This document shows positions 322 through 34,396 of a stretch of 35,303 bases of DNA, in pieces. Location: contig NZ_JAFIWB010000038.1 of assembly GCF_017163705.1 (NCBI RefSeq), forward strand, positions 1 to 35,303, given 5' to 3'. This DNA is from Xanthomonas bonasiae (lineage in GTDB: Bacteria > Pseudomonadota > Gammaproteobacteria > Xanthomonadales > Xanthomonadaceae). Under the pieces are notes generated by a model. That model was not told the origin of the DNA. It worked only from the letters and a program-made list of their open reading frames with translations, and did not search any database. A program made the translations under genes and the position numbers. Position 1 is the stretch's first letter. Every line of letters starts with the position of its first letter.

Positions 322-1224
322 TTACTCCCCGTACCCGAACGCCTTCAACGCGGCCTCGTCGTCCGACCAGCCCTCGCGCACGCGCACCCAGGTCTCCAGG
401 AACACCTTGGCGCCGAACAGGCGCTCCATCTGCTGCCGGGCCTTGGCGCCGATGTCCTTCAGGCGGGTGCCGCCCTTGCCGATCACGATCGCCTTCTGGC
501 CCTCGCGCTCGACCCAGATCACCGCGCCGATGCGCAGCAGCGCGCCGTCCTCGGCGAAGCGCTCGATCTCCACCGTGGTCGCGTACGGCAGCTCTTCGCC
601 GAGCTGGCGCATCAGCTGCTCGCGCACCAGTTCGCCGGCCAGGAAGCGCTGGCTGCGGTCGGTGATCTCGTCCTCGCCGAACATCGCCGGCGCTTCCGGC
701 ACCAGCGCCAGCAGGTCGCGCACCAACGCTTCCAGGCCCTTGCGCTTGAGCGCGGAGATCGGATGCACCGCGGCGAAGCTGCGGCCGTCGCTGACCTGCT
801 GCAGGAACGGCAGCAGCGCGGTCTTGTCCTTGAGCCGGTCGACCTTGTTCACCACCAGCACCACCGGGATGCCGGAATCGCTGAGTACGTTGAACGCCAG
901 CGTGTCCTCGTCGTCCCAGCGCCCGGCCTCGATCACCAGCAAGCCGGCGTCCACGCCTTCCAGCGAGCCGCGCGCGGCGCGGTTCATGACCCGGTTCATC
1001 GCGCGCTTCTGCTCGCGGTGCAGGCCGGGGGTGTCGACCAGCACCAACTGCCCTTCCGGGAAGCTGGCGATGCCCAGCAAGCGGTGCCGGGTGGTCTGCG
1101 GGCGGTTGGAGACGATGCTGACCTTGGCGCCCACCAGGGCGTTGGTCAGGGTGGACTTGCCCACGTTGGGGCGGCCGATCACGGCCACGCTGCCGCTGCG
1201 GTAAGGGGACGCTTGCTCGTTCAC
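322..1224 (-). CDS. era: GTPase Era
   Basis: Era is a 300-residue GTPase that binds the 3' end of 16S rRNA and helps mature the 30S subunit. The G1 motif GRPNVGKS is at residues 17-24, DTPG at 64-67 and NKVD at 126-129. A C-terminal KH domain (about 205-285) contains the VIGKGG RNA-binding loop. I place the start at a GTG (1224) whose GTGA overlaps the rnc stop codon, which implies translational coupling; the frame stays open 65 codons further upstream but only inside rnc. It is the last gene of the lepA-lepB-DUF4845-rnc-era cluster within the window. recO commonly follows era in related genomes, but none is visible before the window edge. Confidence 0.97.
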
Positions 1225-1901
1225 TTGCTGGAATCCAGTTGCTCGATGGCGGCGGCGGCGGCCTGTTGTTCGGCCAGCCGTCGCGAGGTGCCCTCGCCCT
1301 CGGTGGTGAGGGCAGGCTCGGCGAGTACGCAGCGTACCCGGAATAGCTTGGCGTGTTCGTCGCCGGTTTCGCTGATCAGCTCGTACGCCGGCAGGGCCCG
1401 CTGCCGGGCCTGCAGCCATTCCTGCAGGCGGGTCTTGGCGTCCTTCTCCGGCTTGCCGACCGGCAGTGCGGCCAGCGCCGTCTCGAACCAGGGCAGGATC
1501 ACCGCACGGCAGGCCTCGAATCCGGCGTCCAGGTAGATCGCCGCGACCACCGCCTCGACCGCGTCGGCCAGGATCGAATCGCGGCGATGCCCGCCGGACT
1601 TCATCTCGCCCGGCCCCAGGGTCAGCCGCTCGCCCAGTTCCAGCTGGCGGCCGATGGTGGCCAGCGAGGCCTCGCGCACCAGTTCGGCGCGGGCGCGGGT
1701 CAGCGCGCCTTCGTCGGCCTTGGGCCAGCGCCGGTACAGCGCCTCGGCGATCAGCTGGTTGACGATGCTGTCGCCGAGGAATTCCAGCCGCTCGTTGTGC
1801 GGCGCGCCGGCGCTGCGATGCGTCAGCGCCTGCGCCAGCAGCTGCGGGTCGGCGAAGCGGTGACCGATGCGGTCGCCGCGCAGGATCGTTTTACTCGCCA
1901 C
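1221..1901 (-). CDS. rnc: Ribonuclease III
   Basis: RNase III is the double-strand-specific endoribonuclease that processes rRNA precursors and degrades structured RNAs. The 226-residue protein has the family signature NERLEFLGD at 36-44. The second acidic cluster has Asp113 and Glu116, the expected metal ligands. A double-stranded RNA-binding domain follows from about 153 to 222. The start is a GTG at 1901 that overlaps the last 11 bases of the DUF4845 gene, and the stop overlaps the era start by four bases. All three genes should therefore be translated from one message. Length and motifs match the family, and nothing is missing. Confidence 0.97.
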
Positions 1902-8599: not shown

Positions 8600-8629
8600 T
8601 TGACGCAACGGAAACAACCTCTGGATGAT
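8600..8629 (+). promoter_or_regulatory. Possible sigma-70 promoter for the fatty-acid oxidation gene
   Basis: TTGACG (8600-8605) and GATGAT (8624-8629) are separated by 18 bases and face the gene that starts at 8667. The -35 is good and the -10 is poor, so this is only a candidate. The rest of the 238-base divergent gap holds a small GCTGGC/GCCAGC hairpin (8545-8561) and the rpoE promoter. Confidence 0.35.
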
Positions 8630-8666
8630 AACGATCTTCTCCATACATAAGCGGATGGTCCTCCCC

Positions 8667-10730
8667 ATGCTTTCAGGCTTCGACGGGCTCCGATTCAGTC
8701 ACTGGCAAGCGGATATCCGCGACGACGGCGTCGTCGTGCTCAGCCTCGACCGCCAGGACGCGCCCGTCAACGCGCTGTCGCAGGACGTGCTGCTGGAGCT
8801 GGGCGATCTGCTCGAACGCATCGCCATCGACCCGCCCAAGGGCGTGGTGATCCGCTCGGCCAAGGCCAATGGCTTCATCGCCGGCGCGGACCTGAAGGAA
8901 TTCCAGGAATTCGACCGCCGCGGCACCGTCAACGACGCGATCCGCCGCGGCCAGGCCACCTTCCAGAAACTGGCCGAACTGCCCTGCCCGACCGTGGCCG
9001 CGATCCACGGTTTCTGCATGGGCGGCGGCACCGAGATCGCGCTGGCCTGCCGCTACCGGGTCGCCTCCAGCGACGGTTCCACCCGCATCGGCCTGCCCGA
9101 GACCAAGCTCGGCATCTTTCCCGGCTGGGGCGGCAGCGCGCGCCTGCCGCGGCTGATCGGCGCGCCCGCGGCGATGGACCTGATGCTGACCGGGCGCACC
9201 GTATCGGCATCGGCGGCCCGCGCGATGGGCCTGGTCGACAAGGTCGCCGCACCGGCGGTGCTGGTCGATACCGCGGTCGCGCTGGCCTTGACCGGCAGCG
9301 CGCGCCCGTTCAAGCAGCGCGCCACCGCCTGGGCCACCAACACCTGGCCGGCGCGCAAGCTGCTGGCGCCGCAGATGCGCAAGCAGGTCGCGCGCAAGGC
9401 GCGCAAGGAACACTACCCGGCGCCGTACGCGCTGATCGGCGTCTGGGAGCGCAGCGGCGGCGGCGGCATCCAGGCGCGGCTGGACGCCGAGCGCAAGGCC
9501 GTGGTCAAGCTGGCGAGCACGCCGACCGCGCGCAACCTGATCCGCATCTTCTTCCTCACCGAGCGGCTCAAGGCGCTGGGCGGGAAAGACCATGGCATCC
9601 GCCACGTGCACGTGGTCGGCGCCGGGGTGATGGGCGGCGACATCGCCGCCTGGTCGGCCTACAAGGGTTTCGAGGTGACGCTGCAGGATCGCGAGCAGCG
9701 CTTCATCGATGGCGCGCTGAGCCGCGCCGGCGAGCTGTTCGCCAAGCGGGTCAAGGACGACAGCAAGCGCCCGGCGGTGGCGGCGCGGCTGAAGGGCGAC
9801 CTGGCCGGCGACGGCGTGCCGGTGGCCGACCTGGTGATCGAGGCGATCGTGGAGAATCCGCAGGCCAAGCGCGAGCTGTACCAGTCGCTGGAGCCGCGGA
9901 TGCAGCCCGATGCGCTGCTCAGCACCAACACCTCCTCGATCCCGCTGACCGAACTGCGCGAGCACATCCAGCGCCCGGCGCAGTTCGCCGGCCTGCACTA
10001 CTTCAACCCGGTGGCGCAGATGCCGCTGGTGGAGATCGTCTGCCACGACGGCCTGGCCGCGGACAACCAGAAGCGGCTGGCCGCGTTCTGCAAGGCGATC
10101 GACAAGCTGCCGGTGCCGGTCGCCGGCACGCCCGGCTTCCTGGTCAACCGGGTGCTGTTCCCGTACCTGCTGGAAGCGGCCACCGCGTACGCCGAGGGCA
10201 TCCCCGGCCCAGCGCTCGACAAGGCCGCGGTGAAGTTCGGCATGCCGATGGGGCCGATCGAACTGATCGACACCGTGGGCCTGGACGTGGCCGCCGGGGT
10301 CGGCGCGGAACTGGCGCCGTTCCTGGGCCTGCCGATCCCCGCCGCGCTGCAGACGGTGGAACCGGGCAAGCGCGGCAAGAAGGATGGCCAGGGCCTGTAC
10401 GCCTGGGAAAACGGCCGCGCGAAAAAGCCGGAAGTGGACAAGGACTACCAGGCGCCGGCCGATCTGGAAGACCGCCTGATCCTGCCGCTGCTCAACGAGG
10501 CGGTGGCCTGCCTGCACGACGGCGTGGTCGCCGATGCGGACCTGCTCGACGCCGGGGTGATCTTCGGCACCGGCTTCGCCCCGTTCCGCGGCGGTCCGAT
10601 CCAGTACATCCGTGCGGCCGGCGCCGACGCGCTGCTGGAGCGCCTGCGCGCCCTGCAGGCGCGCTACGGCGAGCGCTTCGCGCCGCGCCCGGGCTGGGAT
10701 TCGCCGGTGCTGCGCGAGCCGGTGGCCTGA
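8667..10730 (+). CDS. FadB/FadJ-type enoyl-CoA hydratase / 3-hydroxyacyl-CoA dehydrogenase
   Basis: This bifunctional beta-oxidation alpha subunit has 687 residues. The N-terminal crotonase domain has the oxyanion loop IAGADLKEF and the two hydratase glutamates, Glu123 (GGGTE) and Glu145 (GLPETKLGI). The dehydrogenase half begins with the NAD-binding loop GAGVMGG (318-324) and contains the catalytic histidine His444 in GLHYFNP. I start at ATG 8667 (MLSGFDGLRF); ATGs at 8655 and 8625 are in frame and cannot be excluded. No thiolase (fadA/fadI) gene is adjacent, so its partner must be elsewhere. It is divergent from rpoE. FadB and FadJ cannot be separated from sequence alone. Confidence 0.93.
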   Translation: MLSGFDGLRFSHWQADIRDDGVVVLSLDRQDAPVNALSQDVLLELGDLLERIAIDPPKGVVIRSAKANGFIAGADLKEFQEFDRRGTVNDAIRRGQATFQKLAELPCPTVAAIHGFCMGGGTEIALACRYRVASSDGSTRIGLPETKLGIFPGWGGSARLPRLIGAPAAMDLMLTGRTVSASAARAMGLVDKVAAPAVLVDTAVALALTGSARPFKQRATAWATNTWPARKLLAPQMRKQVARKARKEHYPAPYALIGVWERSGGGGIQARLDAERKAVVKLASTPTARNLIRIFFLTERLKALGGKDHGIRHVHVVGAGVMGGDIAAWSAYKGFEVTLQDREQRFIDGALSRAGELFAKRVKDDSKRPAVAARLKGDLAGDGVPVADLVIEAIVENPQAKRELYQSLEPRMQPDALLSTNTSSIPLTELREHIQRPAQFAGLHYFNPVAQMPLVEIVCHDGLAADNQKRLAAFCKAIDKLPVPVAGTPGFLVNRVLFPYLLEAATAYAEGIPGPALDKAAVKFGMPMGPIELIDTVGLDVAAGVGAELAPFLGLPIPAALQTVEPGKRGKKDGQGLYAWENGRAKKPEVDKDYQAPADLEDRLILPLLNEAVACLHDGVVADADLLDAGVIFGTGFAPFRGGPIQYIRAAGADALLERLRALQARYGERFAPRPGWDSPVLREPVA

Positions 10731-17348: not shown

Positions 17349-18530
17349 ATGCCGCACACACGCCGTCACTGGATGCCAGCGCTCGCGCTGGCCCTCGCCG
17401 CCGCCCTCGTCTCCGCCGCCGCAGGCGCCGGTCCGCTGTACCTGGGCGCCGACCTGTCCTACGTCAACGAAATGGAGGACTGCGGCGTGCAGTACCGCGA
17501 GCACGGCGCGGTGCAGGACCCGTTCGTCCTGTTCCATGCGCACGGCGCCAATCTGGTGCGCGTGCGCCTGTGGAACGATGCGCGCTGGACCCGCTACAGC
17601 GACCTCAGCGACGTCAAGAAGACCATCCGCCGCGCGCGTGCGCAGGGCATGCAGGTGCTGCTGGACTTCCACTACTCCGACGACTGGGCCGATGGCGAGA
17701 AGCAACTGATCCCCAAGGCCTGGGCCGCGATCACCGACCAGGACGAACTGGCGCGCACGCTGTACGGCTACACCTACGACACGCTGAGCGCGCTCGATCG
17801 CGCGGGGCTGATGCCGGAGCTGGTGCAGGTCGGCAACGAGAGCAACTCGGACCTGATGGACAGCCAGCCGTGGGACAAGCGGCGGCCGATCGACTGGGCG
17901 CGCAACGCCAAGCTGCTGCGCGCCGGCATCCAGGCGGTGCGCGACGCCGGCGCACGTTCGGCGATCAAGCCGAAGGTGATGCTGCACATCGCCCAGCCGG
18001 AAAACGTGGAGCCGTGGTTCGCCGCGGCCAGCAAGGCCGGCGTGCGCGACTTCGACTTCATCGGCATCAGCTACTACCGCAAGTGGTCCAGCGAATCGAT
18101 GGCCGGGCTCGGCGCCACCATCAAGCGCCTGCGTAACCGCTACCCCGCCGAAGTGATGGTGGTGGAGACCGCCTACCCGTGGACGCTGGCCAGCGGCGAC
18201 GCCTCGCACAACCTGCTGGGCGAGGACTCGCTCATCGCCGGCTACCCGGCCACCCCGCAGGGGCAACTGGACTACCTGGTCGATCTCACCCAGCTGGTGA
18301 TCGACAACGGCGGCAGCGGCGTCGTGTACTGGGAGCCGGCCTGGACCAGCAGCAGCTGCAAGACCCGCTGGGGCACCGGCTCGTCGTGGGAGAACGCCAG
18401 CTTCTTCGATTTCGCGCACGGCAACGAGCTGCTGCCCGGCATCGGCTTCATGCGCCACGCCTACCGGCCTGCGCCGCAGGCCAGGACAGACGCGGCGGCG
18501 ACGCCGCAGGTAAAGGACCCGCAACCATGA
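17349..18530 (+). CDS. galA: GH53 arabinogalactan endo-beta-1,4-galactanase
   Basis: This secreted enzyme cleaves beta-1,4-galactan side chains of pectin (type I arabinogalactan). It has 393 residues. A Sec signal peptide covers about 1-27 (basic start, then an Ala/Leu-rich stretch ending AAAGAG). The GH53 (alpha/beta)8 barrel shows YLGADLSYVNEME, VRVRLWND and the catalytic pair: acid/base Glu164 in QVGNES and nucleophile Glu273 in VVETAYPW. The ATG at 17349 is used because the signal peptide follows it directly. It lies 22 bases after the receptor gene, and its stop overlaps the start of the next gene as ATGA. The three form one operon. Endo-acting release here and exo-trimming by the next enzyme make a complete galactan route. 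Confidence 0.95.
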   Translation: MPHTRRHWMPALALALAAALVSAAAGAGPLYLGADLSYVNEMEDCGVQYREHGAVQDPFVLFHAHGANLVRVRLWNDARWTRYSDLSDVKKTIRRARAQGMQVLLDFHYSDDWADGEKQLIPKAWAAITDQDELARTLYGYTYDTLSALDRAGLMPELVQVGNESNSDLMDSQPWDKRRPIDWARNAKLLRAGIQAVRDAGARSAIKPKVMLHIAQPENVEPWFAAASKAGVRDFDFIGISYYRKWSSESMAGLGATIKRLRNRYPAEVMVVETAYPWTLASGDASHNLLGEDSLIAGYPATPQGQLDYLVDLTQLVIDNGGSGVVYWEPAWTSSSCKTRWGTGSSWENASFFDFAHGNELLPGIGFMRHAYRPAPQARTDAAATPQVKDPQP

Positions 18531-21082
18531 TCGAACTGAGCCGACGCGACCTGCTGCGCTCGCTGGTCGCCGGCGGCGTCCAGGTGGCCGTTCCCGGCGC
18601 GGCGGCGGCCTTGGCGCCGGCAGCGCTGGCCGCGAGCGCCACCGGCGCAGGTCCGGCGCTGACCTGGGACGAGGATGCGCCGGCACCGCGCGAACGCCTG
18701 CTGTGCGACGTCGGCTGGCGCTTCCACTTCGGCCATGCCGACGATCCGGCGCGCGACTTCAACTTCGGGACGTTCCAGCGCACCTACGCCAAGGCCGGCA
18801 AGGACACCGCCGACGCGGCCCTGCCCGGTTTCGACGACAGCCGCTGGGACGCGATCGATCTGCCGCACGACTGGGCGGTGGCGTTGCCGCCGCGCCAGGA
18901 TCCCGCCTCCGCCAGCATCCTGGTCGACGATCCCGCAGCGGCGCACGGCTACAAGCCGCTCGGCCGCAACGACCCGCAGACCAGCATCGGTTGGTACCGG
19001 CGCGAACTGGAGATTCCGGCCGACGATCTGGGCAAGCGGATCTGCCTGGAATTCGACGGCGTGTTCCGCGACTGCATCGTGTTCTGCAATGGCCATATCG
19101 TCGGCCGCAACGGCAGCGGCTACTGCGGCTTCGAGGTCGATCTCAGCGACGTGCTCGACTACGGCAAGCGCAACGTCATCGCCGTGCGCGTGGACGCCAC
19201 CCTGGGCGAAGGCTGGTTCTATGAGGGCGCGGGCATCTATCGCCACGTGTGGCTGCGCAAGACCGATGCGCTGCACGTGCCGCTGGACGGCGTGTTCGTG
19301 CGCAGCCCGTGGCAAGGCGGCGCCGCGCAGGCGCTGGTCAGCACCGAACTCGGCAACAGCGGCGCCGAAGCGCGCAATTGCAGCGTCACCTCGGTGATCC
19401 GCGCGCCGGACGGGCGCATCGTCGCGCGCGCGACCAGCGCGCAGGTCACCGTGGCGCCGGGCGTGGTGCAGCGCGTCGAACAGGCGCTCGATCTCGGCAC
19501 GCCCGCGCTGTGGTCGCCGGACACGCCGCAGCGCTACACCCTGACCACCCACCTGCACAGCGACGGCCGCGCCTGCGACGCGCTGCGCACGCGCTTCGGT
19601 GTGCGCAGCCTGCAGTTCGACCCGCAGCGCGGCCTGCTGCTCAACGGCGCGCCGTTCAAACTGCACGGCACCAACAACCACCAGGACCACGCCGGCGTCG
19701 GCACCGCCATCCCCGAACGCCTGCACGAATGGCGCCTGCGCCAGCTCAAGTCGATGGGCTGCAACGCGTACCGCAGTTCGCACAACCCGGCCGCACCGGA
19801 AGTGCTGGAGCTGTGCGACCGCCTCGGCCTGCTGGTCATCGACGAGACCCGGCGCATGTCTTCCGACAGCGAGGCGCTGGCGGAACTGGAAACGATGGTG
19901 CGGCGCGGCCGCAATCATCCCTGCGTGATGCTGTGGTCGCTCGGCAACGAGGAACCGCAGATGGTCACCGCGCGCGGCGCACGCATCGTCGCGCGCATGC
20001 AACAACTGGTGCGGCGCCTGGATCCGACCCGCCCCACCACCTTCGCAATGGACAAGGGCTTCGACGACGGCGTCGGCCAGGTGGTGGACGTGGTCGGCTT
20101 CAACTACCGCACCCCGCAGATGGATGCCTTCCACGCGCGCCATCCCGGCATCCCGATCTATGGCAGCGAAACCGGCAGCACCGTCGGCGTGCGCGGCAAT
20201 TACCGCACCGACGACGCGCGCGGCTACGCCCGCGCCTACGACCTCGACTACCCGTGGTGGGCGAGCAGCGCCGAAGCCTGGTGGAGCTACGTCGCGCAAC
20301 GGCCGTACATCGCCGGCGGCTTCGTCTGGACCGGCTTCGACTATCGCGGCGAACCCACTCCGTACAACCGCTGGCCGAACGTGGCCTCGCAGTTCGGCAT
20401 CCTCGACAGCTGCGGCTTCCCCAAGGACAACTACTGGTACTACCGCGCGCAATGGACGCGCGAGCCGGTACTGCACCTGTTCCCGCACTGGAACTGGGAC
20501 GGCCTGCTGGACGAACGCGACAACGGCATGGTCGACGTCTGGTGCCACAGCAACCTGGACGCGGTGGAACTACTGGTCAACGGCGCCAGCCAGGGCCTGC
20601 AGCAGGTGCCCGCCTACGGCCACGTCGAATGGCGGGTCAAGTACGCGCCCGGCACCATCGAGGCGCGCGGCTATCGCGACGGCAAGCAGGTGCTGGTGCA
20701 GACCCGCGCGACCGTCGGCGCAGCTGCCGCGATACGCCTGCGCAGCGACCGCCCCGAGTTGCTGGCCGACGCCGAGGACGTCGCCGTGGTCGTGGTCGAG
20801 ATCGTCGATGCGCAAGGCCGCGTGGTCCCCACCGCCGACACCGCTGTGCGCTTCGCCGTACGCGGTGCGGGTCGGCTGATCGGCCTGGGCAACGGCGATC
20901 CGGCCAGCCACGAGAACGACAAGGGTGACAGCCGCCGCGCGTTCAACGGACTGTGCATGGCGCTGCTGCAGACCACGCGCACGGCGGGCACGCTGGTGCT
21001 GGAAGCGACCGCGCCTGGGCTGGCGCCAGCGCGGCTGGCGCTGAAGAGCGTGCGAACCAAGGTGCGGCCGTTCGTGGCCTGA
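18527..21082 (+). CDS. GH2 family beta-galactosidase, Tat-exported
   Basis: This exo-acting beta-galactosidase has 851 residues and probably finishes galacto-oligosaccharides from the GH53 enzyme in the periplasm. The N-terminus SRRDLLRSLV followed by a hydrophobic, Ala-rich stretch is a twin-arginine signal. Domains in order are a sugar-binding jelly roll (about 60-245), an Ig-like domain (250-360), a catalytic barrel (362-625), DUF4982 (about 665-725) and a C-terminal Ig-like domain (about 740-840). The catalytic residues are Glu475 (LGNEEP) and Glu548 (YGSETG). The ATG overlaps the GH53 stop. An intrinsic terminator begins inside the stop codon. Other GH2 activities such as beta-mannosidase are less likely given the galactanase neighbour and the DUF4982 architecture. 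Confidence 0.92.
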   Translation: MIELSRRDLLRSLVAGGVQVAVPGAAAALAPAALAASATGAGPALTWDEDAPAPRERLLCDVGWRFHFGHADDPARDFNFGTFQRTYAKAGKDTADAALPGFDDSRWDAIDLPHDWAVALPPRQDPASASILVDDPAAAHGYKPLGRNDPQTSIGWYRRELEIPADDLGKRICLEFDGVFRDCIVFCNGHIVGRNGSGYCGFEVDLSDVLDYGKRNVIAVRVDATLGEGWFYEGAGIYRHVWLRKTDALHVPLDGVFVRSPWQGGAAQALVSTELGNSGAEARNCSVTSVIRAPDGRIVARATSAQVTVAPGVVQRVEQALDLGTPALWSPDTPQRYTLTTHLHSDGRACDALRTRFGVRSLQFDPQRGLLLNGAPFKLHGTNNHQDHAGVGTAIPERLHEWRLRQLKSMGCNAYRSSHNPAAPEVLELCDRLGLLVIDETRRMSSDSEALAELETMVRRGRNHPCVMLWSLGNEEPQMVTARGARIVARMQQLVRRLDPTRPTTFAMDKGFDDGVGQVVDVVGFNYRTPQMDAFHARHPGIPIYGSETGSTVGVRGNYRTDDARGYARAYDLDYPWWASSAEAWWSYVAQRPYIAGGFVWTGFDYRGEPTPYNRWPNVASQFGILDSCGFPKDNYWYYRAQWTREPVLHLFPHWNWDGLLDERDNGMVDVWCHSNLDAVELLVNGASQGLQQVPAYGHVEWRVKYAPGTIEARGYRDGKQVLVQTRATVGAAAAIRLRSDRPELLADAEDVAVVVVEIVDAQGRVVPTADTAVRFAVRGAGRLIGLGNGDPASHENDKGDSRRAFNGLCMALLQTTRTAGTLVLEATAPGLAPARLALKSVRTKVRPFVA

Positions 21083-26344: not shown

Positions 26345-26359
26345 CGCGTGCGTGCGGCC

Positions 26360-26677
26360 TCAGCCCCTCTCCCACCGGGAGAGGAGTTGGGGTGAGGGTA
26401 CGGCGCGAAGCGTCTCGCGGTGTTTGGATGCACGAAGCTGGCCCGTACCCTCACCCGCCCCTGCGGGGCACCTTCCCCCGAAAAGGGGGCCATGGTCCCG
26501 ACGGGAGAAGGAACCGCGTCAGCCCCTCTCCCACCGGGAGAGGGGTTGGGGTGAGGGTACGGCGCGAAGCGTCTCGCGGAGTTTGGGTGCACGAGGCTGC
26601 ACCCGTACCCTCATCCGCCCCTGCTTGGCACCTTCCCCCGAAAGGGAGCCCATGGTCCCGATGGGAGAGAAGGAACA
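26360..26677. repeat. Two tandem copies of a 159-bp repeat with nested inverted repeats
   Basis: The units start at 26360 and 26519. Each opens with a CCCCTCTCCC/GGGAGAGG palindrome, contains TGAGGGTAC facing GTACCCTCA about 40 bases on, and ends with a short C-run/G-run pair (CCCCCGAAAAGGGGG in copy 1). Copy 2 differs by scattered substitutions. Together with flanks it fills the 337 bases between mutS and the converging GST gene. I see no coding sequence in it. The stems could end transcription from both sides. Confidence 0.88.
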
Positions 26678-26681
26678 GCCG

Positions 26682-27338
26682 CTAGGCGGTCGCCGGCGCC
26701 ACGCTTGCCGGCATGTCCGGATGTGGATGCGCCGCGATCAACGCAGCATCGATCGCACTGGCACGCAGCAATGCAGGACGATCGCCATGGCGCTGCGCGA
26801 ACGCGGCGAATGCCGGGCGCGGCTCAAGCTGGCCGATGCGCAGGTAGTACCCCAGACATGCGGCGGCATACAGGTCGGCCGCGCTGAAGCGGTCGCCGGC
26901 CAGGTAGTCGCGGTCCGCGACCGCCTGTTCCAGGGTCTGCAGCAGGTCGGCCTCGCGGCCATAGCCGGCGCTGCGTGCCGGTGCCAGCATCCCACCCTCC
27001 TTCGCGGTCAACAGCGCCTCGAACGGCCCGGCCAGGAAGAACAGCCAGCGGTAGTAGTCGGCGCGCGCCGGCGATCCCGGCGGCGGCGCCAGCTGCCGCT
27101 CCGGCACCAGATCGGCCAGGTAGGCGCAGATCGCCGCATTCTCGGTGACCACGGTGTCGCCATGGCGCAGCGCCGGTACCTTGCCCATCGGGTTGATCGC
27201 CAGATAGGCCGGCGCCTTCATCGTGGTGCCGTAATCGAGAATGACCGCCTGATACGGCAGGCCGGTTTCCTCCAGCATCCAGCGGGCGACGCGGCCGCGC
27301 GACATGGGGTGGGTGTAAAGCACGATCTCGGTGGACAT
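26682..27338 (-). CDS. Glutathione S-transferase family protein
   Basis: This is a cytosolic GST-fold protein of 218 residues. The N-terminal thioredoxin-like domain (about 3-78) contains YTHPMSRGRVARWMLEE, the cis-proline segment NPMGKVPAL and the TENAAICAYL glutathione-contact helix. The all-helical C-terminal domain spans about 88-200. It is a beta- or theta-like form; Ser13 of HPMSRGR is a possible glutathione-activating residue. The gene lies 58 bases after the WYL regulator gene on the same strand, so the two are probably co-transcribed and the regulator may control it. The specific electrophile substrate is unknown. Confidence 0.92.
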   Translation of the reverse strand: MSTEIVLYTHPMSRGRVARWMLEETGLPYQAVILDYGTTMKAPAYLAINPMGKVPALRHGDTVVTENAAICAYLADLVPERQLAPPPGSPARADYYRWLFFLAGPFEALLTAKEGGMLAPARSAGYGREADLLQTLEQAVADRDYLAGDRFSAADLYAAACLGYYLRIGQLEPRPAFAAFAQRHGDRPALLRASAIDAALIAAHPHPDMPASVAPATA

Positions 27339-27396
27339 GGGCAGACTTCCGTTGTGAACAGCCTGCAGTCTGGTCCTGCCCTGCTGACAGGTGCTG

Positions 27397-28092
27397 TCAG
27401 TAGTCGGCGCCGTAGCCGGTGGCCGCGCGCCAGCGCTTGATCAGCAGGTGCCGGCGCGAGGGATAGCGTTCGCCGTCGTCGGCCAGGGCCAGCACCCGGT
27501 CGGCGCGGAAGTGGCGGAAATCGCGGCGCAGTTCGCACCACGCGGCGATCATGCCGTAGCTGCCGAAGAAGGCCATCGCGAACGGCCAGATCAACCGTTG
27601 CGAGACCGCGCCATTGGCATCGCTGTAGTCCATCCGCAGCACGTGCTCGAGGCGGATGCCACGGCGCAGCACCGGCAGCCACGGCGCCGGCGGCGGCACG
27701 TCTGCGGCGGCGGGCACCAGCAGTCCGCTGGTCTCGATCGACAGGCGCAGGTTGCCGGGCAGCGTGGCCGCGATCCGCGCCACCGCGCGCTGCGCCGCCT
27801 GCGCCAGTTCCGGATCGGCCTGGCGCGCCACCCAGCGTGCGCCCAGGGTCAAGGCCTCCAGTTCGTCCTCGCTGAAATTCAGCGCCGGCAGCAGGAAGCC
27901 CGGACGCAGCACGTAGCCGACGCCGGGATCGCCGAGAATGTCGGCGCCTTGCACGCGCAAGGTCGCGATATCGCGGTACAGCGTGCGCAGGCTGACGCCC
28001 AGCGCAGTGGCGAGCTGGGCACCGGCCACCGGCCGGCGCCGGCCGCGCAGGGCGTCGAGCAGATGCAGCAGACGGGTCGCACGGATGGCCAT
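27397..28092 (-). CDS. WYL-domain helix-turn-helix transcriptional regulator (YafY-type)
   Basis: This transcription factor has 231 residues. The N-terminal HTH_11 winged helix (about 1-55) contains ATRLLHLLDALRG and LGVSLRTLYRDIATLRVQG. A ligand-sensing WYL domain (about 130-200) follows, ending in a segment with WPFAMAFFGSYGMIAAWCEL. The ATG at 28092 starts directly at the HTH; the upstream open frame is GC-driven. It precedes the GST gene on the same strand, and this regulator-enzyme pairing suggests a detoxification switch. Whether it represses or activates cannot be read from the sequence. Confidence 0.9.
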   Translation of the reverse strand: MAIRATRLLHLLDALRGRRRPVAGAQLATALGVSLRTLYRDIATLRVQGADILGDPGVGYVLRPGFLLPALNFSEDELEALTLGARWVARQADPELAQAAQRAVARIAATLPGNLRLSIETSGLLVPAAADVPPPAPWLPVLRRGIRLEHVLRMDYSDANGAVSQRLIWPFAMAFFGSYGMIAAWCELRRDFRHFRADRVLALADDGERYPSRRHLLIKRWRAATGYGADY

Positions 28093-28383
28093 CGCGACAG
28101 GATAGTGGGCTTTGCCGTGTGCTGGTCGCTGCCGGGAAGGATCCGCTCCCGCTTCCAGGCATGTCGTGCGAGCGCGCGCAGGCCATCGAACCGGTGCGGG
28201 GTGACACGCCGGCGTGCGCAAGCCGGCCGCTGCCGGGTGGCGGCTCGCGTCGCGGCTGTAGCCCGCCCGAAACACGCGCCCCTATACTCGCAAGGCCGTC
28301 GCTGGCCGCATTGCCGGCGCATGCGCCGGCGAGGGATCAGCCGCGCGGGTGGACGCGCTCAGCACAAGGAAGCAAGGCAACGC

Positions 28384-28518
28384 ATGTCGATACGCCCGCA
28401 AGCCACGGCACCGCAACCGGCGCGACCAGGCATGGCGCTCGACGCAGCCGCGTCCGGCACCCCGGCCGCCATCCAGCACCGCGACGTGGCCGCTTCCAAC
28501 CGCATCGGTAGGCACTGA
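28384..28518 (+). CDS. Possible 44-residue leader ORF
   Basis: An ATG-started frame of 44 residues (MSIRPQATAPQPARPG...) ends with TGA two bases before the GGAG ribosome site of the ATPase gene. A weak AAGG lies 6-13 bases before its ATG. The peptide is Ala/Pro/Arg-rich, with no membrane segment or recognised motif. Translation ending here could couple to the TTG start of the next gene, 11 bases on. Chance is a real alternative in DNA this GC-rich. Confidence 0.25.
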   Translation: MSIRPQATAPQPARPGMALDAAASGTPAAIQHRDVAASNRIGRH

Positions 28519-28522
28519 AGGA
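28517..28522 (+). promoter_or_regulatory. Ribosome site GAAGGA/GGAG fixing a TTG start
   Basis: AAGGAG lies about eight bases before TTG 28530. No ATG or GTG in a better position precedes the membrane-anchor sequence [13 protein letters not shown], so the TTG is taken as the start. Confidence 0.6.
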
Positions 28523-28529
28523 GCCTCGC

Positions 28530-31500
28530 TTGGAGATCTACCTGTTCGTGATCGGCGTCGTCGTGGGCGGTTTGCTGTTGCACGTCTTCAGACACGCGGG
28601 ATCGGCCGCTCCGCGCACGCCGCAGTCGGCACCCGAACCCGACCCCAAGCCGGAAGCGCCCGAAGCGCTGGCCGGGGAAACCCCGGCCCAGCACCTGCAG
28701 CGATTGCGCCAGCAGGTGGAAGCGCTGGACGACCAGATCCAGAGCCCGGCCGATCTGTTGCGGATCGCGCAGTTCCAGCAAGGCGCGACCCTGCTGGCCA
28801 GCGCGGAGTTCTCCGACCAGGCGGTGCTCGAAGCGCTCGGCAGCCCCGGCTACGCGCTGCCGTCGATGGCCGCGGTGGCGCTGCCGCAGCGACGCCGCAG
28901 CGATCCGGACGCGGTGCTGGAACTGCTGCCGCACCTGGGCTCGTATCCGCTCAACTTCGTGCTCGACTACCTGCAGACGCTGCCGGACGCCGATCACCTG
29001 CATCTGCTGCTGCGCCAGGCGCGCGACTGGTGGTGGGGCTTCGTGCCGTTCCGGCAGCGCCTGCGCGGCTATCTGCACTGGGCGGCGGGCAAGGCGCCGG
29101 CGGACCGCGCGGTGGAGTTCGACGGACTGGACGACGAGGCGCTGGCCAAGCTGGCCGACACCCTCGGCCAGTTCAAGGAGCCGGTGCTGGAGCCGTTCCT
29201 GCAGCGCCTGCAGGACGCGCGCAGCCTGCGCCGCGAGCAGCGCGTGCTCGGCGGTTTCGGCCGCGTCGTCGCCACGCTGCCGCCGCGCCTGCGCCTGCGC
29301 CACCCCGCGCTGGACGCAGCGCTGCAGCGCGCCTACGAGCAGTTGGTGGCCACGCCGCCGCAGCCGGTGCTGCTGGTCGGCGAGCACGGCGTCGGCAAGA
29401 GCGTGCTGATCGATCTGCTCAGCGAACGCCTGCTGGCCGAAGGCTGGCGCGTATTCGAAGCGTCGGCGGCGGAGATCCTCGCCGGGCAGAGCTACATCGG
29501 CGAGCTGGAAGGCCGCATCCGCGAGATGCTGGCGGTGCTGCACCGCGAACGCGCGTTGTGGCGCGCGCCCGACTTCTACGACCTGCTGCACAAGGGCTCG
29601 CACTCGCGCGACCCGCGCGGCATCCTCGACCTGGTGCTGCCGGCGCTGGAGCGCGGCGAACTGCGCCTGATCGGCGAGATCACGCCGCGGCAGCTGGCGC
29701 AGCTGCAGGTGGCGCGGCCGGCGACGCGCTCGCGCTTCGAAGTGGTCACGCTGGCGCCGGCCGCCCCCGCCGCACTGGCGCAGATCGGCGAACGGTGGGC
29801 GCAGGCGCAGCGGCAGACGCTGCAGGCGGAGGTGATCGACGCGCGCACCCTGGCCGAGGCCGAACGCATGGCCGCACAGTACTTCCCCGAGCAGCACGAG
29901 CCGGGGCGGCTGCTGCAGTTGCTGGACGAGACCTTGCAGGCCGCGACCGGCGCCGAGACGCCGCGCCTGCCGCTCGACGACGATGCGCTGCTGCAGGCCG
30001 TGGCCAAGCGCAGCGGCCTGCCGCTGGACGTGATCGACGATCGCCAGCGGCTGGAACTGGACGCGCTGCGCCGGTTTTTCCGCCAGCGCGTGCTCGGCCA
30101 GGACGAAGCGGTGGAGACCCTGCTCGATCGCATCGCCATGCTCAAGGCCGGCCTGGTCGACAGCCATCGCCCGATCGGCGTGTTCCTGTTCGCCGGCCCC
30201 ACCGGCACCGGCAAGACCGAACTGGCCAAGGCGCTGGGCGAACTGCTGTTCGGCAACGCCGAGCGCCTGCTGCGCCTGGACATGAGCGAATTCCAGGGCG
30301 AGGACGCGCTGTCGCGGCTCACCGGCGACGACAGCGCCGGCCAGCGCACGCTGATCGCGCGGATCCGCGAGCAGCCGTTCTCGGTGGTGTTGCTGGACGA
30401 GTTCGAGAAGGCCCACCCCAAGGTCTGGGACCTGTTCCTGCAGGTGTTCGACGACGCGCGGCTGAGCGATCGCAACGGCAACACCGCCGACTTCCGCCAC
30501 AGCATCATCATCCTGACCAGCAACGTCGGCGCCACCCTCGCCCGCGGCGCCGGCCCCGGCTTCGCCACCGTCGCCGGCGGCTACTCGCGCAGCGCGGTGG
30601 AGAAGGCGGTGTACGACACCTTCCGCCGCGAGTTCATCAACCGGCTCGATCGGGTGGTGCTGTTCAACCCGCTGGACCGCGCGCTGATGCGCGAGATCCT
30701 GCACAAGGAGCTCGATCGCACGCTGACCCGGCGCGGCCTGCGCAACCGCGCCTGGGCGGTGGAATGGGAGCCGTCGGCGATCGAATTCCTGCTCGATCGC
30801 GGCTTCACCCCGGACCTGGGCGCACGCCCGCTGCGCCGCGCGATCGAGCAGCACCTGCTCGCGCCGCTGGCGCGCAGCATCGTCGAACAGCGCGCGCCGG
30901 AAGGCGACCAGTTCCTGTTCGTGCGCGGCGCCGGCGATCGCCTCGACGTGCGCTTCATCGCCCCCGATGCACCCGCGCCCATGCCCGCAGCGGGCACCGT
31001 CGCCGACCCGGCGGCGCCGGCGGACCTGCGCGACATCGTCTACGCGCCGGTCACCGGCGGCGCGGCGCTGACGCGCCTGGACACGGCCCTGCACGTCCTG
31101 CACGAGGCCCACGCCGCAAGCGCATGGCGGCTGGCGCGGGAAGCGGATTTCGCCAGCATGGGCGAACCCGATTTCTGGTCGCAGCCCACCCGCTTCCAGG
31201 TGCTGGACCGGATCGAACGCCGCGACCGCATCGAAAGCGCGCTGGACAGTGCCGGACGCATGCGCGCGCGGCTGGACGGCGCGCAGCGCGACGGCGAATT
31301 CGTCGCCCGCCTGGCGCAATTGCTGTGGCTGCTGCAACTGGCCAGCGACGCGCTGCAGGAGCAACGCCCGCAGGACGCGCTGCTGGACCTGCGCATCGGC
31401 GCCAGCGAACTGCACCGCCATCCCGCCGACGCGCGGCGCTGGTGGCAGCAGTTGCTGCAGATGTATCTGGCGTGGGCCGCGCAACGCAACATGCGCGTGG

Positions 31501-31832
31501 AGGTGCTGCAGCAGGATCCGGAGCAGGGCCGCGCCTGGCTGGCGATCGCCGGCTTCGGCGCGCTGGATCTGCTGCAACCGGAGACCGGCCTGCACGTGCA
31601 GGAACAGGACGCCGACGAACCGGCGCTGCGCCGGCTCAGCGCACAGGTGCGGGTCGCGCCGGACCTGCCCGGACAGGCCCGGCGCGCGTCGGATGCCGAC
31701 GACGAACTGCGCGTGTGCCGCCGCTACCGCATCGCGCCGGCGCCGCTGGTGCGCGACAGCATGCGCGGTTGGCGCAGCGGCCGGCTGGAGCGCGTGCTGG
31801 GCGGCGATTTCGACGTGATGCCCAGCGCCTGA
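28530..31832 (+). CDS. Membrane-anchored Clp-like double AAA+ ATPase with a C-terminal RF2-like domain
   Basis: 1100 residues. A single N-terminal membrane helix (about 4-20) is followed by a Pro/Glu-rich linker and a helical region (about 50-250) unlike the Clp N-domain. AAA module 1 has Walker A GEHGVGKS (284-291) and pore motif SYIGE (321-325), but its Walker B region (about 341-352) lacks the DE pair. There is no ClpB middle domain. Module 2 is complete: GPTGTGKT (556-563), LLDEFEKA (Asp623-Glu624), TSN (663-665), Arg705 and GARPLRR (764-770), but it lacks the GYVG pore loop and any ClpP-binding IGF/IGL loop. Residues 833-1100 resemble release factor 2 domain 1 joined to the RF2 C-terminus, without GGQ or SPF. 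The start is TTG. I know no characterised function; an inner-membrane ribosome or quality-control role is speculation. Confidence 0.85.
   Translation: [1100 protein letters not shown]

Positions 31833-34396
<2,564 letters not shown>

Follow-up and report, generated by a model that had tools for sequence, protein, structure and literature searches.

Release factors are viewed as soluble enzymes of translation termination, and the question raised by the locus described here is why the remains of one of them should form the end of a Clp ATPase. The window, that is, the whole stretch of DNA analysed, comprises 35,303 nucleotides of Xanthomonas bonasiae (assembly GCF_017163705.1, contig NZ_JAFIWB010000038.1, positions 1 to 35,303). 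At 28530..31832 (+) it carries a gene, delimited from its open reading frame (ORF), an upstream signal, homologues and alignments, which starts with TTG, has an AAGGAG sequence shortly 5′ to it and encodes 1100 residues. The product is probably a membrane-anchored Clp-type AAA+ ATPase with a tail related to release factor 2 (RF2), hereafter the pseudo-RF2. A preliminary description, made from the letters of the sequence, had given the same ORF, residues and coordinates (residue 833 corresponds to base 31026) and had called the protein a Clp-type AAA+ ATPase; the Pfam families AAA_2 (134.2 bits, cut-off 27) and ClpB_D2-small (58.1 bits, cut-off 21.9) bear this out. We regard the descent of the tail from RF2, the loss of its catalytic domain and codon-reading motifs, the order of the domains, the spread of the family and the presence of an xGF loop as established at the level of sequence. 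The best explanation that we can offer for them is a membrane-tethered, probably ClpP-coupled Clp ATPase equipped with a pseudo-release-factor recognition domain, a reading to which we give a probability of roughly 0.4.

The preliminary description had aligned residues 833-1100 by eye with bacterial RF2. The likeness holds, but it begins near residue 866 rather than 833: the pseudo-RF2 domain (residues 866-1100, 31125..31829 (+)) comprises domain 1 and superdomain 2/4 of RF2 without domain 3. Taken by itself, the segment at 31428..31595 (+) is sufficient to pass Pfam PCRF (PF03462); it covers positions 114-173 of the 194 in the profile (27.9 bits, E 5.2e-6, in the genome search). The cut-off is 24 bits, which the whole protein exceeds with 25.7 and the isolated tail with 29.5 (E 8e-7). 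A PCRF match falls within the ATPase frame in 17 of the 18 genomes carrying the family and exceeds the Pfam cut-off in 16, one of which (G438) passes only with neighbouring frame matches; of the remaining two genomes, one (G440) is below the cut-off and one (G439) has no match. NCBIfam prfB also recognizes the tail (E 5e-7), its 29.1 bits lying below the whole-protein cut-off of 370. Among PDB sequences, phmmer with the single tail places RF2 first (1.1e-6), colinear over tail residues 42-193, and a profile of 14 tails finds RF2 at 2.5e-8 and then RF1, the two sole credible matches of the profile; the remaining matches are chance-level designs and strays (0.23 to 0.82 with the single sequence, 0.27 and 0.6 with the profile).

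Comparison of profiles, which the preliminary description had proposed as a check, gave the same order. An alignment of 37 tails scored 118.9 against 28 RF2 sequences (probability 98.7 in local and 99.4 in global mode) and 72.7 against RF1, the latter alignment consisting of 10 sequences only, one of them over-long; by this measure the source is closer to RF2 than to RF1. Controls remained far below, with at most 18.6 for 20 column-shuffled profiles and 12.8 for a reversed alignment. The last 75 tail columns alone fall on RF2 322-359, weakly (P 0.0021, probability 13), in the register suggested earlier from a match between residues 1074-1092 and the RF2 C-terminus. The charge of the tail (-3 over 268 residues, compared with -21 over the 373 of the RF2 of the same genome) is uninformative. 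Could the resemblance be a generic similarity of helical proteins? Identity to RF2 is low (26-38% in pairwise matches, about 22-24% in the profile-profile alignments) and, as detailed below, only a minority of the conserved RF2 columns keep their residue. Generic helices would not be expected, however, to leave the shuffled and reversed profiles at 8-19, to align both the PCRF region and the C-terminal strand-helix in order, or to pass PCRF within the ATPase frame of 16 out of 18 genomes, and we give this explanation practically no credence. With the fold judged from sequence profiles, the RF2 descent of the tail is confirmed.

What was kept and what was lost can be read from a joint alignment with RF2, in which 141 columns show a conservation of 90% or more in RF2; 85 of these are occupied in the family. 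The residue is retained in 21 of the 85, among them the W of FW, MYxxW, E.G.H and an R and, in the C-terminal part, R.Y, D and VL.G..D. Both residues of the FW element of domain 1 (F882 and W883) are invariant among 18 aligned members. ExGxH and the RRY strand are 129 residues apart in the 28 RF2 sequences but only 38-60 in 39 members of the family, a shrinkage which indicates that domain 3, the GGQ domain, has been excised. That domain was not found; six of 40 members do have a GGQ string within their last 300 residues, but in another place (SGGQFLFV in five, where the second AAA+ module ends, and SGGGQ in L072). The SPF stop-codon reader occurs in none of the 40 members and in 28/28 RF2, for which, it should be said, SPF was the criterion of typing. 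The GG(T/D/S)E motif, which reads the stop codon, occurs in a single member out of 40 (L084, where it is out of place) compared with 27/28 RF2 and 10/10 RF1. Finally, none of 39 members has a W in the 14 residues before RRY, where RF2 carries its switch-loop tryptophan (Trp319 in the account given in PMC5378476). The absence of SPF and the landmark distance thus sustain the earlier claim that SPF and GGQ are gone together with the stretch that held them, and the best explanation is that the pseudo-RF2 no longer reads stop codons nor releases peptides.

The remaining scaffold appears to be maintained. A signature aligned to the RF2 C-terminus, RRY...LVRD..RGWR.G....V..G.FD (residues 1064-1095, 31719..31814 (+)), is present in 39 of 40 members, the exception (L083) ending with its contig, and in none of 41 release-factor sequences (28 RF2, 10 RF1 and three untyped). 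From residue 850 on, 36 columns are invariant in 18 sequences, 17 of them within 1064-1095, and the C-terminal end is the part best conserved across phyla. The ratio of nonsynonymous to synonymous substitution rates (dN/dS) of the tail is 0.12-0.29 in nine comparisons within Xanthomonas and 0.43 with L044, from another genus; these values are rough because the opposite strand is open along the entire gene, and being low they point to purifying selection. The antisense frame itself (28359-31967 (-), 1202 codons), which spans the whole ATPase gene, probably results from codon usage at high G+C content.

How widespread is this arrangement? The preliminary description had recommended a search for homologues of the same layout, and 39 loci, scattered across distant phyla, were recovered from 84,980 species genomes, a lower bound since the scan requires exact short patterns. 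Named records belong to Xanthomonas, Lysobacter, Pseudoxanthomonas, Luteimonas, Tahibacter, Rudaea and Solirubrobacter; metagenome-assembled genomes, whose taxon labels may be wrong, are labelled Lysobacter, Woeseia, Acidobacteria, Pyrinomonadaceae, Eisenbacteria, Gemmatimonadetes, Planctomycetota, Thermoleophilia, Hyphomicrobiales and Rhodospirillales. The long ORF is present in 14 of 60 relatives (the genome itself included), and among 369 genomes of the class a match at 1e-9 was obtained in two, that of the window included. For the tail tree and profile, two twins of genus genomes (L047 and L048), the cut L083 and the unreadable or untypable release factors were dropped; in this tree, which is unrooted and has long branches, the 37 pseudo-RF2 tails form a single clade, supported at 100/100, apart from those of RF1 and RF2. 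Apparently, then, the pseudo-RF2 tail arose once and is now scattered over distant phyla. Since its clade lies outside both RF1 and RF2, the RF2 donor cannot be named, and a donor from the RF2 of one particular phylum was rejected, the pseudo-RF2 rows standing on a long branch. A mobile origin was likewise rejected, the tail having no plasmid, phage or viral-contig match, as was a defence system, PADLOC matching only the AAA part and nothing in the tail.

The remainder of the protein resembles a Clp/Hsp100 ATPase with an unusual N-terminal region. A hydrophobic segment (residues 3-20, 28536..28589 (+)) is predicted to be a single membrane anchor, with a best mean Kyte-Doolittle hydropathy over 18 residues of 2.51 within the first 70 residues; the value is at least 1.6 in 13 of 18 aligned homologues, in keeping with the membrane tether proposed earlier; such an anchor would place the ATPase at the membrane. 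Residues 51-250 (28680..29279 (+)) form helical repeats. Their profile, built from 16 sequences, finds alphaRep proteins, which are HEAT-like designs (best E 1.7e-9), and we call the repeats HEAT-like for that reason. The first AAA+ module, D1 (29283..30029 (+)), keeps Walker A (position 290 is K in 16/18 and R in 2/18) and the aromatic pore-loop residue (position 322, Y or F in 16/18) and has lost the Asp-Glu of Walker B: position 347, that of the Asp, is P in 16 of 18 rows, and no hydrolysis-competent Walker B was found. The second, D2 (30030..30965 (+)), has Walker A, Walker B and the arginine finger (K562, D623, E624 and R705 in 18/18 rows), with sensor 2 in most members and its GYVG pore loop replaced. 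From these intact motifs D2 looks active. The protein would most likely form hexamers. In a tree of D2 the family is a separate clade with a support of 100/100, outside the ClpA, ClpB and ClpC-like chains, the ClpB and ClpC labels being derived from the docking loop itself.

This loop is the main pointer to a protease. At the place of the ClpP-docking IGF of ClpA, the protein has the tripeptide PGF (residues 676-678, 30555..30563 (+)), and 35 of 37 members have [PILVM]GF between sensor 1 and the arginine finger, 7-8 residues after TSNxG (PGF in 22, IGF in five, LGF in five, VGF in two and MGF in one); three of the 40 members are outside these counts, two because they are incomplete (L065 and L067) and L058 because its loop went unread. 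Of 29 Clp chains assembled for comparison, 22 were read for the loop and 20 of these typed by NCBIfam score. IGF occurs at the same spacing in 5/5 ClpA and LGF in five chains that exceed neither the ClpA nor the ClpB cut-off and are "ClpC-like" by our own label; no such tripeptide was found in 12/12 ClpB chains from the family genomes. All 12 of the latter are over the ClpB cut-off, as are the three ClpA chains scanned over that of ClpA. In ClpA and ClpX the tripeptide docks into ClpP, as described in PMC7707817 and PMC9035409. ClpP is encoded in 18/18 family genomes, which is weak evidence because 12 of 14 control genomes have it too. Taken together, the loop suggests that the ATPase may couple to ClpP, a question on which we consider the chances even.

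We therefore propose a new Clp/Hsp100 family with an inner-membrane N-terminal helix, HEAT-like repeats, two AAA+ rings and a C-terminal pseudo-RF2. The hexamer would be driven by D2, while D1 would bind nucleotide and hardly hydrolyse it; clients would be pulled by the aromatic D1 pore loop and handed to ClpP via the xGF loops of D2. The pseudo-RF2 would act in docking or recognition, its target plausibly being the translation machinery or a release-factor partner, so that clients would be chosen at or near membrane-bound ribosomes.

Several observations weigh against this proposal. The gene is absent from nine of 20 Xanthomonas genomes (present in 11), and a clear anchor is missing in five of the 18 rows (L060, L072, L073, L080 and L081), whose starts are unsure, L081 being cut by a contig end. 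The GYVG pore loop of D2 occurs in none of 38 members read, a short variable stretch taking its place, and its loss makes normal threading by D2 doubtful; the stretch holds an aromatic residue in L074 only, those of L047 and L048 preceding it. At the docking loop, two of the 37 members carry AGF or PAF (L078, L066), and the 22 PGF rows are not independent. A domain of ~270 residues behind D2 lies, by its geometry, close to the ClpP face, where it could hinder docking. The clustered ORFs of the 39 loci revealed no common neighbour with a role in translation or proteolysis. Lastly, D2 matches ClpB in the PDB (303 bits) ahead of ClpC (286) and ClpA (227) and, to our knowledge, ClpB does not bind ClpP. 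The resemblance extends to NCBIfam, where chaperone_ClpB (TIGR03346) is the best match (292.6 bits, cut-off 1232); ClpA (TIGR02639) scores 281 bits against a cut-off of 993.

The proximity of D2 to ClpB, the loss of the codon-reading parts of RF2 and the lack of a common translation or proteolysis neighbour would all suit a membrane-bound, ClpB-like remodelling disaggregase working without ClpP, its pseudo-RF2 contributing only to structure or substrate binding and having nothing to do with translation. Against such an enzyme stand the xGF loop, kept at the ClpA spacing across phyla in 35 of 37 members and lacking in the 12 confirmed ClpB chains of the same genomes, and the position of D2 in a separate clade rather than inside ClpB. 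We hold the disaggregase to be possible, if doubtful, and keep ClpP coupling as the preferred reading.

The role of the pseudo-RF2 within a ClpP-coupled machine is the more tentative part. Domain 1, which is kept, binds the L11 stalk in RF2 (reported in PMC5378476), and this makes translation the obvious place to seek a partner; so does the fact that ClpXP already recognizes the alanine-tailed chains of bacterial ribosome-associated quality control (RQC), as related in PMC8012679. Of the parts of RF2 that contact the ribosome and the codon, the fold of domain 1 and the scaffold of domain 2/4 are all that remain, and with SPF, GG(T/D/S)E, the switch-loop tryptophan and domain 3 lost, a canonical fit into the A site is unlikely. 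A translation-linked docking of the pseudo-RF2 thus seems to us rather unlikely. In a more specific form, the tethered ATPase would be the protease head of an RQC pathway, using its enzyme-less release factor to dock on stalled membrane-bound ribosomes from the L11 stalk side, extracting the unfinished chain and passing it to ClpP, and might then be regarded as a one-protein analogue of the Vms1-Cdc48 partnership, independently evolved; this we consider a long shot. Alternatively, domain 1 would grip the L11 stalk and the ATPase would clear or split stalled membrane ribosomes, or block the A site, without any proteolysis. The stalk-binding property of the corresponding part of RF2 (PMC5378476) and the invariance of the FW element agree with such a ribosome-docked factor; the loss of the canonical A-site contacts does not, and six pseudo-RF2 domains per hexamer would fit the A site poorly, so that we find it distinctly improbable.

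Comparison with known systems emphasizes the composite nature of the protein. With bacterial RF2 (prfB) the tail shares a colinear core of domain 1 and domain 2/4, including the W of FW, MYxxW, ExGxH and the C-terminal VL.G..D; it differs in lacking domain 3 with GGQ, SPF, an in-place GG(T/D/S)E and the switch-loop tryptophan, in its fusion to a Clp ATPase and in forming its own clade. The two AAA+ modules, an active-looking D2 and xGF at the ClpA spacing recall ClpA and ClpC, whereas the family is set apart by its hydrophobic N-terminus, HEAT-like N-domain, degenerate D1 Walker B, pseudo-RF2 tail and lack of the GYVG pore loop, and by a D2 that falls outside these chains in the tree. ClpB/Hsp104 provides the best PDB and NCBIfam matches, but the family falls far below the ClpB cut-off and ClpB has neither the xGF loop nor an RF2 tail. 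Release-factor parts are also reused outside normal termination in ArfB/YaeJ and PrfH/RFH, which, according to section 2.4 of PMC6514570, keep the catalytic glutamine domain without the N-terminal domain; the ATPase tail, in contrast, keeps domain 1 and loses the hydrolase. In eukaryotic RQC, Vms1/ANKZF1 pairs a release-factor-type protein with the AAA+ ATPase Cdc48 (also from PMC6514570), but the release-factor fold is unrelated and binding occurs through a VIM motif instead of by fusion, so that the likeness is one of analogy only.

An aimed literature search, with subscription papers outside its range, found no description of a Clp ATPase with a pseudo-RF2, and in the main text of PMC6514570, a survey of release-factor evolution whose section 2.4 covers RF1/RF2, ArfB and PrfH, the words Clp and PCRF do not occur. 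The interpretation offered in the preliminary description thereby stands as regards an RF2-derived module without GGQ and SPF on a Clp ATPase, an anchor-like segment and an undescribed layout, its ribosome docking keeping the tentative standing given above. It did not mention the HEAT-like repeats, the degenerate D1, the absent pore loop of D2, the tripeptide resembling the ClpP-docking one or the distribution over several phyla. In this family the hydrolase is gone, and selection has maintained the RF2 scaffold as part of a motor that unfolds proteins. Contact of the tail with the translation machinery, if it occurs, would tie translation physically and directly to regulated proteolysis at the membrane; if the tail has no such contact, it would represent an unforeseen second life of the RF2 fold. 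The family hints at a connection, as yet unexplored, between the making of proteins and their destruction.

The genomic surroundings were surveyed by clustering the ORFs beside the 39 loci, called by a simple script and read by eye, families in at least three loci being considered among the first 70 inspected. A presumed MutS family, which we take to be the mismatch-repair protein, is found upstream in 17 loci, none of them outside the Xanthomonas/Lysobacter family, and a presumed KatG family downstream in 14, between 67 and about 7100 bases away. MutS2, which splits ribosomes, is a different protein from mismatch-repair MutS. No neighbour family was seen in common with the distant phyla, and a function based on an operon was therefore rejected. 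Of the nine Xanthomonas genomes without the ATPase, seven retain MutS and KatG on either side of the site, where no trace of the ATPase was seen; the glutathione S-transferase and WYL genes are also kept at these seven sites, except for G010, which has a piece of the former only. In the other two (G002 and G016), KatG is located elsewhere.

In the window, a catalase-peroxidase-like gene (32144-34396 (+), Pfam peroxidase) follows the ATPase directly, and a glutathione S-transferase and a helix-turn-helix WYL regulator (26682-28275 (-)) lie between mutS and the ATPase. The intergenic region 26350-26690, downstream of mutS, matches sister genomes in several overlapping blastn pieces (26362-26641), from which we conclude that it is a short repeated element. 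Farther away are a GTPase with a KH_2 domain (322-1419 (-), at the other end of the window), presumably Era-like, a two-domain enoyl-CoA hydratase/3-hydroxyacyl-CoA dehydrogenase (8625-10730 (+)) and a glycoside hydrolase family 2 protein (18179-21082 (+)). Among the other loci, the ATPase nearly abuts a mutS-like ORF in several from Lysobacter, with almost no gap, and five of the Tahibacter type (L063, L064, L066, L068 and L083) have an upstream ORF family in common. Three closely related loci have an ORF of 681 residues after the ATPase (L070 12009-14054, L075 5447-7492 and L077 12824-14869), and the starts of the three sequences are nearly identical.

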